In this document: positions 5,334-47,912 of the stretch, in pieces | How the letters are laid out: each line of letters opens with the position of its first letter | How positions within the stretch are numbered: position 1 is the stretch's first letter | DNA from: Propioniciclava sp. MC1595 | GTDB taxonomy: Bacteria; Actinomycetota; Actinomycetes; Propionibacteriales; Propionibacteriaceae | Reading direction: 5' to 3' | Assembly: GCF_017569205.1 (NCBI RefSeq) | Contig: NZ_CP071870.1 | Location: forward strand, 1,612,001 to 1,676,000 | Length of the DNA: 64,000 nt | The notes under the pieces: model-generated | Seen by the model: the letters and a program-made list of their open reading frames with translations, nothing else | Database searches by the model: none | What the model was told of the DNA's origin: nothing | Translations under genes and position numbers: made by a program

Positions 5334-5369
5334 CGGGTCATGCTAGTGGGAGCGCAGTAGGGTGGCCGC

Positions 5370-43349: not shown

Positions 43350-44057
43350 TCAGTCGACCGGGTCCTCGTCGTCCTCCTGGACGACCCGCTCCCGCTGCAC
43401 GCCCGGGGCCAGGAAGTGCGCGAGCTCCAGCTCGGCCTCGGGCTGGACGACGAACAGCAGCTCGTCCTCGCCCTCGAGGGCGGCGTCGGCCCGCGGCGGC
43501 TGCGCGGTGCCGTCGCGGATGATCGCGACGAGGACGGCGTCCCCGGGGAACTCGAGGTCGGCCAGCCGGCGCCCGACGGTGGGGCTGTCGGTCGGGAGGG
43601 TCATCTCGACCAGGTTGGTGCGCCCGCCGCGGAAGGCGAAGAGGCGGACCAGGTCGCCGACCGTCACGGCCTCCTCGACCAGCGCGCACATCAGGCGCGG
43701 GGTCGAGACGGCCACGTCGACGCCCCAGACGTCGTCGAACATCCACTCGTTGCTGGGGTGGTTCACCCGCGCCACGGTGCGGGGGACCGCGAACTCGGTC
43801 TTGGCCAGCAGGCTGTGCACCAGATTGGCCTTGTCGTCGCCGGTGGCCGCGATCGCCACGTCGTAGCGGTCGATGCGGGCCTCCTCCAGGGAGTCGACCT
43901 CGCAGGCGTCGGCCAGCAGCCAGGCGGCGCCGGGCACCGAGTCGGGCTTGATCGCGTTCGGGTCACGGTCGATGAGGAGGACCTGGTGGTCGTTGGCGAG
44001 CAACTCGCGGGCGATGGAGCGGCCGACGTTCCCCGCCCCGGCGATGGTCACGCGCAT
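43350..44057 (-). CDS. TrkA-family potassium uptake regulator (second of pair)
   Basis: 235-aa RCK protein. The Rossmann motif MRVTIAGAGNVGRSIARELLANDHQVLLIDRD, DACEVDSLEEARI and VAIAATGDDKANLV form TrkA-N; the C-terminal part (FPGDAVLVAIIRDG, GEDELLFVVQPEAE) is TrkA-C. It resembles mycobacterial CeoC/TrkA and gates a K+ channel or transporter in response to NAD(H) or ATP. AGGAG lies seven bases before the ATG. It begins eight bases after the other TrkA gene, in one operon. Confidence 0.88.
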   Translation of the reverse strand: MRVTIAGAGNVGRSIARELLANDHQVLLIDRDPNAIKPDSVPGAAWLLADACEVDSLEEARIDRYDVAIAATGDDKANLVHSLLAKTEFAVPRTVARVNHPSNEWMFDDVWGVDVAVSTPRLMCALVEEAVTVGDLVRLFAFRGGRTNLVEMTLPTDSPTVGRRLADLEFPGDAVLVAIIRDGTAQPPRADAALEGEDELLFVVQPEAELELAHFLAPGVQRERVVQEDDEDPVD

Positions 44058-44065
44058 GGGGTCTC

Positions 44066-44728
44066 CTAGATCCTGACGGGGGGCTCGGCGAGCAGGCCCT
44101 CGATGCGGGGCACGTCCTCGTTGGTGGCGGCGATGTAGAGCATGTCGCCGTCCTGGAGGATGGTCGTCTCGGAGGGGATCATGCCCTGCCCGAAGCGGCT
44201 CAGGAACGGGATGCGGGCCCCGAGGGCCGCCTCGATCGCCGTGACGCGCTGCCCGACCCACTCGTCGTGGGCGCCCAGCTGGATGAGCCGGACCTGGCCG
44301 GACGGGTCGCGCCACTGCGGCTCCGACCCCTCGGGCAGCAGCCGGCGCAGCACCTGGTCGGCCGCCCAGCGCACGGTCGCGACCGACGGGACGCCCAGGC
44401 GTTCGTAGACCTCGGCCCGGCCCTGGTCGTAGATGCGGGCGACCACGTTGTTGAGGCCGTAGGTCTCGCGCACGACGCGCGCGGCGAGGATGTTGGAGTT
44501 GTCACCGGAGGACACCGCGGCGAACCCGTCCGCCTCGCGGATGCCGGCCGCGACGAGCACCTTGCGGTCGAAGCCGATGCCCTTCACCGTGCGCCCGTGG
44601 AAGTCGGGCCCCAGCCGCCGGAACGCGTCGGCGTCCTGGTCGATCACGGCCACGGAATGGCCGCGTCGCTCGAGGGCCCGGGCCAGGGACGAACCCACGC
44701 GACCACAACCCATGATGACGATGTGCAC
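44066..44728 (-). CDS. TrkA-family potassium uptake regulator (first of pair)
   Basis: 220-aa RCK protein: HIVIMGCGRVGSSLARALERRGHSVAVIDQD, then GIGFDRKVLVAAGIREADGFAAVSSGDNSNILAARV (TrkA-N) and VGQRVTAIEAALGARIPFLSRFGQGMIPSETTILQDGDMLYIAA (TrkA-C). It pairs with the downstream paralogue as CeoB/CeoC do in mycobacteria. The GTG start has TACACT eight bases upstream. The divergent permease starts only 18 bases away, so the two promoters overlap. The large upstream extension of this frame runs antisense to the permease and is not real. Confidence 0.87.
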   Translation of the reverse strand: MHIVIMGCGRVGSSLARALERRGHSVAVIDQDADAFRRLGPDFHGRTVKGIGFDRKVLVAAGIREADGFAAVSSGDNSNILAARVVRETYGLNNVVARIYDQGRAEVYERLGVPSVATVRWAADQVLRRLLPEGSEPQWRDPSGQVRLIQLGAHDEWVGQRVTAIEAALGARIPFLSRFGQGMIPSETTILQDGDMLYIAATNEDVPRIEGLLAEPPVRI

Positions 44729-44733
44729 AGGCG

Positions 44734-44742
44734 TAGAGTGTA
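44734..44742. promoter_or_regulatory. Overlapping divergent -10 elements between trkA and the APC permease
   Basis: TAGAGT (44734-44739, plus strand) lies seven bases before the permease GTG. TACACT (44742-44737, minus strand) lies eight bases before the trkA GTG. The two hexamers share three base pairs, so RNA polymerase should be able to open only one at a time. The -35 regions would have to lie inside the opposite coding sequence. Confidence 0.55.
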
Positions 44743-44746
44743 CCCC

Positions 44747-46777
44747 GTGAACCTCACGGACGCCGTGAAGCGTCTGCTCGTCGGGCGCAAGCTGGCGAGC
44801 AACCAGTTGGGCGAGACCCTCCTCCCCAAGCGCATCGCCCTGCCGGTGTTCGCGTCCGACGCGTTGTCGTCGGTCGCCTACGCCCCCGACGAGATCCTGC
44901 TCACCCTGAGCCTGGCCGGCGTCGCCGGATTCGTCTTCTCCTGGCCGATCGCCCTGGGCGTCGCGCTGGTCATGTTCGTCGTCGTGCTGTCCTACCGGCA
45001 GACGGTGCACGCCTACCCGTCCGGCGGCGGCGACTACGAGGTGGCCACGGTCAACCTCGGCCCGAACGCTGGGCTGACCGTGGCGTCCGCCCTGCTGGTC
45101 GACTACGTGCTGACCGTCGCGGTGTCGGTGAGCTCGGGGGTGCAGAACGCCAAGGCACTGGTCCCGTTCATCGTCGGCCACGAGGGCCTGGTCGCCGCCG
45201 TGCTGATCCTGGTGCTGATGGCGATCAACCTCCGCGGCGTGCGCGAGTCCGGGACGCTGTTCGCGATCCCCACCTACGGCTTCATGGTCGCCGTGCTCGG
45301 CATGATCGTGGTCGGGCTCGTCCGCATCCTCGTGGTGGGGGAGCCGCTGGCCGCGCCCACCGCCGGCTACGACGTCGTCGGTGACCCCTTCTACTCCCAG
45401 CTCGAGGGCTTCGCGCTCGTCGCGCTGCTGGCCCGCTCGTTCTCGTCGGGCTCGGCGGCCCTGACCGGCGTCGAGGCGATCAGCAACGGCGTGCCCGCCT
45501 TCCGCGAGCCCAAGAGCCGCAACGCCGCCACCACCCTCGGCCTCCTCGGCCTGGTCGCGATCACGATGCTGGGCGGCATCATCGCCCTGGCCAACCTGAC
45601 CGGCGCCAAGATGGTCGACGAGCACGCCGGCGTGGTGTTCACCCAGGGCGGCGTGGTGGTCGAGGGGCACCAGGAGACGGTGATGGCCCAGCTGGCGATG
45701 ACGGTCTTCGACGGGTTCGAGCCCGGCTTCGTGTTCGTCATCGTGATGACGATGATCATCCTGTTCCTGGCGGCCAACACCGCCTTCAACGGGTTCCCGG
45801 TGCTGGGCTCGATCCTCGCCCGCGACGGCTTCCTGCCCCGGGCGCTGCACACCCGCGGCGACCGCCTGGCCTACAGCAACGGCATCATCCTGCTGGCGCT
45901 GGCCGCCGTCGGCCTGGTGCTCGCGTTCAACGCCAGCGTGACCGCGCTGATCCAGCTCTACGTGGTGGGCGTGTTCGTCTCCTTCACCGTCAGCCAGCTC
46001 GGCATGATCCGGCACTGGACCCGCCACCTCTCCGTCGAGACCGACCCCGCCGAGCGGCGCCGCAAGCAGCGCTCGCGCGCGATCAACGCCGTCGGCCTCA
46101 CCTTCACCGGCACGGTGCTCGTCATCGTGCTCGCCAGCAAGTTCATCTACGGCGCCTACCTCGCCGTGCTCGCCATGGCGCTGCTGTTCGTGACGATGAA
46201 GGCCATCAGCCGGCACTACGACAAGGTCGCCCGCGAGACGGCGCTCGACCAGTCCGAGGCCCACACGCTGCCGAGCCGGGTCCGCGCGGTCGTCCTCGTC
46301 ATGGAGCTCAACAAGCCCGCCCTGCGCGCGATCAACTTCGCCCGCGGCAGCCGGCCCAGCAGCGTCGAGGCCGTCACGATCGCCGTCGACGACGACCAGG
46401 TCCGCGCGATCCGGCACGCCTGGGACGAGCTGGACCCGGGCGTCCCGCTCAAGGTCGTGGCCTCGCCGTTCCGCGAGGTGGTCGGGCCGTTCCTCACCTA
46501 CGTGAAGGGGCTACGCTCGGGCAACCCGCGCGACATCGTGATGGTCTACATCCCCGAGCTGGTCGTCGGCCACTGGTGGGAGCGCCTGCTGCACAACCAG
46601 ACCTCCCTGCTGGTCAAGACCCGCCTGGCGTTCATGCCCGGCGTGGTCACCACGGCGGTGCCGTACCAGCTCGCCTCGTCGCGCTACGCGATCGAGCGGG
46701 CCGAGCGCGACGACGCCGCCGAGTGGCGCCGCCCCGGTACCGGCACCGTGCACTCGGGGGCATCTCTCGATGACTGA
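44747..46777 (+). CDS. APC-family amino-acid/polyamine-type permease
   Basis: 676-aa membrane protein. LPVFASDALSSVAYAPDEILLTL, YRQTVHAYPSGGGDYEVATVNLG, and SSGSAALTGVEAISNGVPAFREPKSRNAATTL are typical of the large APC permeases found beside TrkA genes. About twelve hydrophobic segments are followed by a cytoplasmic C-terminal domain of some 170 residues (LPSRVRAVVLVMELNKPALRAINFARGSRPSSVEAVTIAVDDDQ) resembling a universal-stress-like fold. Its neighbourhood hints at K+ or amino-acid uptake regulated with TrkA. GTG 44747 is chosen over GTG 44738 on -10 spacing. The stop overlaps the methyltransferase gene by eight bases. Confidence 0.85.
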   Translation: MNLTDAVKRLLVGRKLASNQLGETLLPKRIALPVFASDALSSVAYAPDEILLTLSLAGVAGFVFSWPIALGVALVMFVVVLSYRQTVHAYPSGGGDYEVATVNLGPNAGLTVASALLVDYVLTVAVSVSSGVQNAKALVPFIVGHEGLVAAVLILVLMAINLRGVRESGTLFAIPTYGFMVAVLGMIVVGLVRILVVGEPLAAPTAGYDVVGDPFYSQLEGFALVALLARSFSSGSAALTGVEAISNGVPAFREPKSRNAATTLGLLGLVAITMLGGIIALANLTGAKMVDEHAGVVFTQGGVVVEGHQETVMAQLAMTVFDGFEPGFVFVIVMTMIILFLAANTAFNGFPVLGSILARDGFLPRALHTRGDRLAYSNGIILLALAAVGLVLAFNASVTALIQLYVVGVFVSFTVSQLGMIRHWTRHLSVETDPAERRRKQRSRAINAVGLTFTGTVLVIVLASKFIYGAYLAVLAMALLFVTMKAISRHYDKVARETALDQSEAHTLPSRVRAVVLVMELNKPALRAINFARGSRPSSVEAVTIAVDDDQVRAIRHAWDELDPGVPLKVVASPFREVVGPFLTYVKGLRSGNPRDIVMVYIPELVVGHWWERLLHNQTSLLVKTRLAFMPGVVTTAVPYQLASSRYAIERAERDDAAEWRRPGTGTVHSGASLDD

Positions 46778-47912
46778 ACCGGGGCAGTGGGCGGTCGGCG
46801 ACCGCCTCGAGCGTGTGCGGGTGAACCGCATCGCCCACGGCGGCCACTGGGTGGCCCGCGTGGACGGGCGGGTCGTGTTCGTCCGGCACGCCCTCGAGGG
46901 CGAACTCGTCGACGTCGTCGTCACCGGCCTGGCCAAGCGGCACGCGCTGGCCGATGCGGTCGCCGTGCACGAGTCCAGTGCGCACCGGGTGACCCCGCCC
47001 TGCGCCATCGCGGCCGTCTGCGGCGGGTGCGACCTCCAGCACGTCGCGGTCGCCCACCAGCGCGAGCTCAAGCGGCAGGTCGTGGCGGAGCAGCTGGCCC
47101 GGCTGGCCGGCCTCGACTGGGACGGCACCGTCGAGGCCCTCGATCCCGACGACCTCGGCTGGCGCACGCGGATGCGCTACCACCGGGGGCCGGAGGGCTG
47201 GGGACTGCGGGCCAGGGCGTCCCACGAGGTGGTGCCCCTGCCGGCGTCGGGGTGCCTCATCGCGGCCCCCGACCTCCGGACGCCGCGGGCTGCGGTCGGT
47301 GCCGCCACCGCCGACGGCCCGGTCTGGGTGACCCCGGGCGAGGAGCTGGTCGTGCGGGAGCGCGCGGCGGGGCACGACTGGGCAGTCCGCGCCGACGGGT
47401 TCTGGCAGGTTCACCCGCGAGCCGCCGACACCCTCGTGGACGCCGTGCTGGCCGGGCTGGCGCCGCGGGCGGGGGAGCGCGCGCTGGACCTGTACTGCGG
47501 CGTGGGCCTGTTCTCCGGGGCGCTGGCGGACGCCGGCGTCCGGGTCACCGGGGTGGAGGGCGGCCGCGACGCCGTGGACCTGGCCCGCCGCAACGTGCCC
47601 GGGGCCCGCTTCCACGCCGGCTCGGTGGACCGGGTCCTGCGCCGCCTGACGGGCCGGACCGACCTGGTCGTCCTCGACCCGCCGCGGGTCGGGGCGGGCA
47701 GGGCGGTGGTCGAGGACGTGTGCGCGCGGCGTCCGCGGGCCGTCGCCTACGTGGCGTGCGACCCCGCGGCGCTGGCGCGCGACCTGGCCACGGCCCGGGC
47801 GTGCGGGTACGAGCCCGACTCGATCCGGGCGTTCGACCTGTTCCCGATGACGCACCACGTCGAATGCGTCGCGATCCTGCGCCCCGTGCAACAGGCGGCC
47901 ACCGCTGGGTGA
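46770..47912 (+). CDS. TRAM-domain class I SAM-dependent RNA methyltransferase (TrmA/RlmD-like)
   Basis: 380-aa 5-methyluridine-type methyltransferase. The N-terminal TRAM domain (VGDRLERVRVNRIAHGGHWVARVDGRVVFVRHALEGE) binds RNA; CAIAAVCGGCDLQHV provides part of an iron-sulfur-like cysteine set; the SAM domain has LDLYCGVGLFSGALADAG, VVLDPPRVGAG, and the catalytic Cys in AYVACDPAALARDL, ending DLFPMTHHVECVA. The target uridine (tRNA or 23S rRNA) is not determined by sequence alone. It follows the APC permease gene, overlapping it by eight bases, as in other actinobacteria. Confidence 0.9.
   Translation: MTEPGQWAVGDRLERVRVNRIAHGGHWVARVDGRVVFVRHALEGELVDVVVTGLAKRHALADAVAVHESSAHRVTPPCAIAAVCGGCDLQHVAVAHQRELKRQVVAEQLARLAGLDWDGTVEALDPDDLGWRTRMRYHRGPEGWGLRARASHEVVPLPASGCLIAAPDLRTPRAAVGAATADGPVWVTPGEELVVRERAAGHDWAVRADGFWQVHPRAADTLVDAVLAGLAPRAGERALDLYCGVGLFSGALADAGVRVTGVEGGRDAVDLARRNVPGARFHAGSVDRVLRRLTGRTDLVVLDPPRVGAGRAVVEDVCARRPRAVAYVACDPAALARDLATARACGYEPDSIRAFDLFPMTHHVECVAILRPVQQAATAG

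Follow-up and report, generated by a model that had tools for sequence, protein, structure and literature searches.

The genome of Propioniciclava sp. MC1595 (G000) is a single contig of 3.43 Mb with a completeness of 100, and we refer to the 64,000 nucleotides (nt) of it analysed here (NZ_CP071870.1, positions 1,612,001 to 1,676,000) as the window. In the window two divergent genes, trkA1 and a kimA-like gene for a predicted K+ transporter, begin with GTG codons on either side of a gap of 18 base pairs (bp), and this gap carries a TANNNT hexamer, the actinobacterial -10 consensus, on each strand (Table 1). We consider it likely that the gap is a bidirectional promoter whose composite -10 element would drive two leaderless mRNAs.

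Table 1. Features of the trkA1/kimA-like locus, in window coordinates
Feature	Position	Strand	Remarks
Intergenic gap between the two GTG starts	44729..44746	no strand	18 bp, read from sequence
-10 element TAGAGT of kimA-like (permease) gene	44734..44739	+	7 nt before GTG
-10 element TACACT of trkA1	44737..44742 (read 44742-44737)	-	8 nt before GTG
Putative composite bidirectional -10, TAGAGTGTA (pattern TANANTNTA)	44734..44742	no strand	union of both hexamers
kimA-like K+ transporter gene (APC/KUP), 676 aa, predicted leaderless	44747..46777	+	Pfam AA_permease_2; phmmer to KimA 6s3k
trkA1 (TrkA_N + TrkA_C; CeoB-like), 220 aa, predicted leaderless	44066..44728	-	Pfam; PDB TrkA matches
trkA2 (TrkA_N + TrkA_C; CeoC-like), downstream of trkA1, same direction	43350..44057	-	Pfam; start by eye, ATG of MRVTIAGAG
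TRAM-domain methyltransferase	46770..47912	+	overlaps kimA-like 3' end by 8 nt

The start codons, at 44728-44726 (minus strand) for trkA1 and 44747-44749 (plus strand) for the permease, are both consistent with homologues. TAGAGT and TACACT have the three base pairs 44737-44739 in common, and TAGAGTGTA is symmetric at every base fixed by TANNNT, so that opposite-strand -10 elements with common bases, as expected of a bidirectional promoter, are present at 44734-44742. A preliminary description of this DNA had given the gap, both hexamers, their distances from the starts and the three common base pairs with exact coordinates. It overlooked what the 7-8 nt between -10 element and start suggest, namely that both mRNAs are probably leaderless. 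A scan of 44000-45500 for sigma-70-type promoters and terminators found no promoter, but it requires a -35 match and is unsuited to promoters of this type; an Rfam scan of the window returned four tRNAs and nothing else.

The plus-strand gene had been described as an APC permease beside a potassium regulator. It does belong to AA_permease_2 by Pfam, although its closer identity is that of a homologue of the K+/H+ symporter KimA, a member of the KUP family: KimA (PDB 6s3k) is its sole PDB relative at E 0.001, with a phmmer E of 8.1e-105 over residues 6-642 of 676 against residues 4-605. NCBIfam assigned no family to it. As read by hand from the alignment, D38, Y45, D119 and E243 match KimA D36, Y43, D117 and E233, which are described as K+-site and proton-coupling residues in the relevant part of PMC6994465, and the four are invariant in an 11-protein alignment. 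With near whole-length similarity and the key residues kept, the permease is by homology a KimA-type K+ transporter, with predicted K+ uptake activity. What sets these genes apart from KimA of 6S3K is the divergent trkA neighbour, found in 216 of the 228 loci examined. On the other side of the gap, trkA1 and trkA2 each encode TrkA_N and TrkA_C domains, and the trkA1 product matches TrkA proteins in the PDB. In G001 (L006, L256) the two trkA genes apparently make up a single open frame, 458 codons from the trkA1 GTG on, which is close in size to TrkA proteins of one chain (PDB 4g65, 461 aa; 4j9u, 458 aa).

The 228 loci were gathered from the genus, family, order and class, with 100 regions hand-picked from match lists for spread. 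They gave 203 distinct contexts after 12 loci in which a script found no divergent pair had been dropped, and their start codons were set by homology, blind to promoters. In 200 of the 203 contexts the permease start was preceded by TANNNT at a distance of 6, 7 or 8 nt, and in none was the hexamer at 0-5 or 9-14 nt, while in shuffled upstream 60-mers it fell at 6-8 nt in 1.5% of cases. The three contexts scored as misses (L121, L125, L147) have by eye an alternative nearby GTG with such a hexamer. Before trkA, TANNNT was found at 6-8 nt in 75 of the 203 contexts, including the window and the four other genus members with a compact gap; another 67 matches lie within 60 nt upstream of trkA, 45 of them 33-44 nt up. 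Actinobacterial leaderless genes are marked by TANNNT about 12 bp upstream, according to the part of PMC3160421 on this signal, and leaderless mRNAs, 29% GUG, have been mapped by differential RNA sequencing in P. acnes, which shares the NCBI family Propionibacteriaceae with Propioniciclava (PMC3848588, relevant passages). The likeness to such genes is the TANNNT about 12 bp before a GTG start; the difference is that here one composite element is common to two leaderless genes. By this signal, leaderless transcripts are probable for the kimA-like gene throughout the sampled class and for trkA in a part of the class.

The forward element is conserved class-wide. All ten genus contexts with kimA have a reverse hexamer that overlaps the permease -10, nine at offset +3 and one, in G004, at offset +1. 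Outside the genus an overlap occurs in 15 of 190 contexts (7 at -4, 1 at -1, 7 at +1 and 0 at +3), a difference with a Fisher p of 1.5e-10, uncorrected for relatedness. Three further genus members, G006, G009 and G012, have no KimA match, and a methyltransferase directly faces trkA (L254, L255 and L253, respectively). The overlap persists there as well: G006 and G012 carry the element TAGAGTCTA at offset +3, and G009 carries TAGAGTA at offset +1 in an 18-bp gap; taking the first GTG of GTGATG as the methyltransferase start puts TANNNT 7 and 6 nt away from the two start codons. The overlapping reverse -10 is thus retained in all 13 Propioniciclava genomes examined, 10 with kimA and 3 without, across differences in gap length, in the leader of trkA and in the gene driven. 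Set against 15/190, the 13/13 indicates that the reverse -10 is constrained rather than incidental, within one clade.

The gap itself is far more variable. The preliminary description had looked to relatives for conservation of the 18-bp gap, and 18-19 bp was found in five of the ten genus members with the pair; the other five have 66-89 bp, so that the genus spans 18-89 bp. Gap quartiles were 77, 108 and 147 bp, and outside the genus a gap below 30 bp occurred in two contexts only. In these, L107 (G051, of the window's family) and L087 (G288, of another family), the pair has been compacted separately, to 23 and 24 bp, with the -10 elements in the -4 register. By arithmetic, optimal spacing in this register predicts 23 bp between starts, a distance named in PMC12825309 in its passages on bidirectional promoters.

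On a kimA-trkA tree of the 10 genus rows with kimA and 4 outgroup rows, two changes between wide and compact gap are needed. A single origin of the compact gap was rejected, since placing the five compact rows in one clade gave p 2.5e-5 in the AU (approximately unbiased) test. On this tree G004 (L002), with its gap of 77 bp, falls among compact relatives; a Shine-Dalgarno-like GGGGAGGA precedes its trkA, which looks like a leaderless/leadered switch at one locus within the genus. In the five wide-gap members the overlapping hexamer, 55-78 nt from trkA, is the sole minus-strand TANNNT between the genes, in a scan that covered the intergenic region and stopped short of the kimA coding region. 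A composite -10 at that distance would give trkA a leader, and purine runs, candidate ribosome sites, were seen by eye in these intergenic regions.

These comparisons bear on another explanation, that TAGAGT alone works, for the transporter, and that TACACT is a by-product with trkA transcribed from elsewhere. The class-wide conservation of the forward -10 and the low frequency of reverse overlaps outside the genus speak for such a one-way promoter. It does not readily account for a reverse hexamer kept in every genus genome, in G004 and G009 in a different register (+1), nor for five wide intergenic regions that offer no other minus-strand TANNNT, and in more than a third of contexts (75/203) a TANNNT of trkA itself stands at leaderless spacing. 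We regard a one-way promoter as improbable. Because the overlapping reverse -10 is kept while the gap varies and trkA is predicted to be leaderless or leadered, the locus most likely has a true bidirectional -10 promoter.

Conservation at single-base level also speaks to the function of the core. In the five compact kimA-bearing genomes the 9-bp core is invariant and four of five left-flank columns vary (columns set by eye; Fisher 0.005); the right flank, a C run that differs by one substitution and by one base in length, was omitted from this test. Of 299 fourfold-degenerate sites in both genes, 12 are invariant among the nine offset +3 taxa; of the nine such sites with an A or T in the window genome, none is. 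An invariant palindrome could also be an operator, with TAGAGTGTA bound by a dimeric regulator and no double -10 at all, and in the window genome an imperfect symmetry does reach outward from the 9 bp, as judged by eye. The other compact genomes keep the core without the flanking symmetry (by eye), the spacing to both starts is that of leaderless -10 elements, and G009 (TAGAGTA) and G004 (TAGGGTA) have a different core that still holds two TANNNT. An operator in this position seems very unlikely to us.

In the bidirectional promoter that we propose, the housekeeping sigma factor would recognise the composite -10 in either orientation, making it a minimal bidirectional promoter. Read rightward, the RNA would start at or beside the G of the kimA-like GTG, and read leftward at or beside the G of the trkA GTG, about 19 bp from the other start; both mRNAs would then be leaderless. 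Polymerase would occupy one orientation at a time, without mutual hindrance at ordinary occupancy, and the transporter for K+ would be expressed along with the KTN/RCK proteins presumed to regulate it, while strong activation of one side alone would depress the other. Since both products appear to act in K+ uptake, we infer that the genes are co-expressed and that one direction affects the other only when one of them is strongly activated.

The closest precedents are the prokaryotic bidirectional promoters of Warman, Grainger and colleagues (PMC12825309). In the passages of that paper on promoter structure, a pseudo-symmetric -10 is common to divergent genes and the usual distance between the transcription start sites is 18 bp, with 10 and 23 bp also common; the locus here resembles them in the shared pseudo-symmetrical -10 and in predicted start sites about 19 bp apart, near the commonest distance. 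It differs in that the start codons double as the predicted transcription start sites, and in lying in a high-G+C actinobacterium. In a literature search at the level of listings we found no paper on leaderless bidirectional promoters in actinobacteria.

The preliminary description had gone further and proposed that transcription of the two genes is mutually exclusive and bistable, occupancy in one direction silencing the other gene for long periods and giving two cell states. Its premise that only one of two polymerases can be bound at a given moment stands, at least for the promoter class: the -10 elements overlap, and simultaneous binding of two polymerases at bidirectional promoters is held to be sterically impossible in the passage of PMC12825309 on this point. 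Exclusivity at the level of the genes does not follow, since exclusion without feedback, one polymerase at a time, is not bistability. In the experiments described there, the two directions of five E. coli bidirectional promoters competed little at basal activity; when one direction was strongly activated the other tended to fall, and at acrA/acrR interference cut noise, the Fano factor falling from 0.16 to 0.07; these data are an analogy from another phylum rather than a test of the Propioniciclava locus. Both genes moreover belong to K+ uptake by homology, and neither the scan of 44000-45500 nor inspection by eye found -35 boxes that would suggest strong occupancy. We would give a bistable switch little chance; our estimate for it presupposes the double -10 and overlaps with that for the bidirectional promoter, so the two need not sum to one.

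Several observations weigh against a bidirectional promoter of the kind proposed. The gap length is not widely conserved, 18-19 bp being found in half of the genus members with the pair, and the 13 genomes that keep the overlap come from one clade, so that their counts are not independent events. Outside the genus the reverse hexamer rarely overlaps the permease -10, and trkA there must therefore mostly use other promoters. Part of AGTGTA could owe its conservation to the start region of the transporter gene itself. By eye, neither side of the gap showed a -35-like hexamer. Unlike the common E. coli arrangements of PMC12825309 (10, 18 and 23 bp, in the parts of it on spacing), offset +3 TANANTNTA gives by arithmetic a 16-bp distance between start sites at optimal spacing. 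The start sites, recognition by sigma and activity of the reverse element are predictions from comparison of genomes, and the same holds for the presumed lack of competition at basal activity and for why the two genes would share a promoter. Finally, the pattern is not enriched across the order. In the window's own 3.43-Mb genome the arrangement start codon / TANANTNTA / start codon is more than chance would give, with 1 site (control 0), but the offset +1 pattern gives 1 site there against 2 control sites, and among 391 genomes of the order the +3 pattern matches in 46, with 50 sites against 63 in the control (hand count). As there is no enrichment over control in the order, we do not claim the doubly leaderless +3 pattern as a common design.

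Inspection of 20 of the 50 order-wide sites showed three, L240, L244 and L245, that resemble real divergent pairs by open frame and third-position G+C content (by eye), and a doubtful one, L242. The offset +1 site of the window's own genome (G000:C1:2765786-2765808; L230 1501-1523) is a TACAGTA in a 17-bp gap between divergent 5-formyltetrahydrofolate cyclo-ligase and MoeA-type genes and looks doubly leaderless; with optimal spacing the starts in this register would lie 18 bp apart, which is the most frequent distance in E. coli. Within the window, two further divergent pairs reported as nearly as tight, 5333/5370 and 35275/35345, are present as described. The first has a 36-bp gap (5334-5369) with non-overlapping TAGCAT (minus strand) and TAGGGT (plus strand), each 6 nt from a GTG, and so is doubly leaderless by signal. 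In the second, where 69 bp separate the starts, TACGGT precedes the minus-strand ATG by 7 nt and the plus-strand ATG has no TANNNT at 6-8 nt.

The functional setting of the promoter depends on which K+ uptake systems are present. The TrkH of the classical Trk system is missing from the window genome by profile search (PF02386, 0 matches), and KdpA and Kup gave no match either, in a search that did not extend to other kinds of K+ channel. Of the four uptake families searched (TrkH, KdpA, Kup and KimA type), the KimA type is the only one found in this genome, and its K+ uptake may rest on the KimA-like protein. In the genus, PF02386 matches in 5 of 13 genomes. The kimA-less G006 and G012 carry Kup and G009 carries TrkH, as would be expected if KimA imports K+. 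However, a neat replacement does not fit G004, G008, G010 and G011, which have TrkH beside KimA (4/10), or G008, which also has Kup; weak Kup matches in G010 fall within its KimA-like genes. G001 and G002 have KdpA beside KimA, and the KdpA match of G002 (G002:C22:93187-94814) is split over three neighbouring segments; the gene may be broken, or the sequencing may have introduced frameshifts.

In mycobacteria, the window's permease presumably has Rv2690c as its orthologue. The CeoB/CeoC 'Trk' system of mycobacteria resembles the locus here in its two TrkA proteins (PMC13163235, relevant passages). In M. tuberculosis, Rv2690, the neighbour of ceoB, is counted as a Trk K+ system gene, and disruption of either ceoB or Rv2690 by a transposon raises fitness under rifampicin, according to the part of PMC12216072 on this system; Rv2690c and a ceo gene are both among the mutated genes in the portions of PMC11878324 and PMC13308281 concerned. 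The difference is that this neighbour is not called KimA-like in PMC13163235, PMC12136442 or PMC12216072 as far as these texts were searched. Term searches for 'KimA' and 'Rv2690' gave 0 occurrences in PMC12136442 and PMC13163235, and the relevant passages of reviews gave no link between KimA and TrkA in actinobacteria. The pairing of transporter and TrkA is thus partly in print already, at least in these parts of the literature, and the KimA-likeness of the neighbour was not found there.

We tentatively suggest, as a possibility rather than an expectation, that the CeoB/CeoC-like TrkA pair of many Actinomycetes has its missing membrane partner in a KimA-type protein, and that a divergent leaderless promoter, collapsed to one composite -10 in Propioniciclava, keeps the ratio of transporter to regulator. 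Support from the family sample is one-sided: TrkA was present in 138 of 143 KimA-bearing genomes but also in 31 of 54 without KimA (Fisher 7e-11), sets that were read by hand from tables at E limits of 1e-3 and 1e-30 and include KimA paralogues and incomplete genomes. Strict co-inheritance of the two was rejected on these counts.

Altogether, Propioniciclava offers within one genus a natural series in which a composite -10 is kept while gap length, leader and downstream gene change, a series suited to studying the working of a bidirectional promoter with two leaderless transcripts. If our tentative suggestion is true, a doubly leaderless bidirectional promoter would have outlived indels and the loss of the gene that it drives. 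The KimA-type gene beside two trkA genes, in a genome without a TrkH, KdpA or Kup match, would provide a testable partner for the TrkH-less TrkA pairs of actinobacteria.

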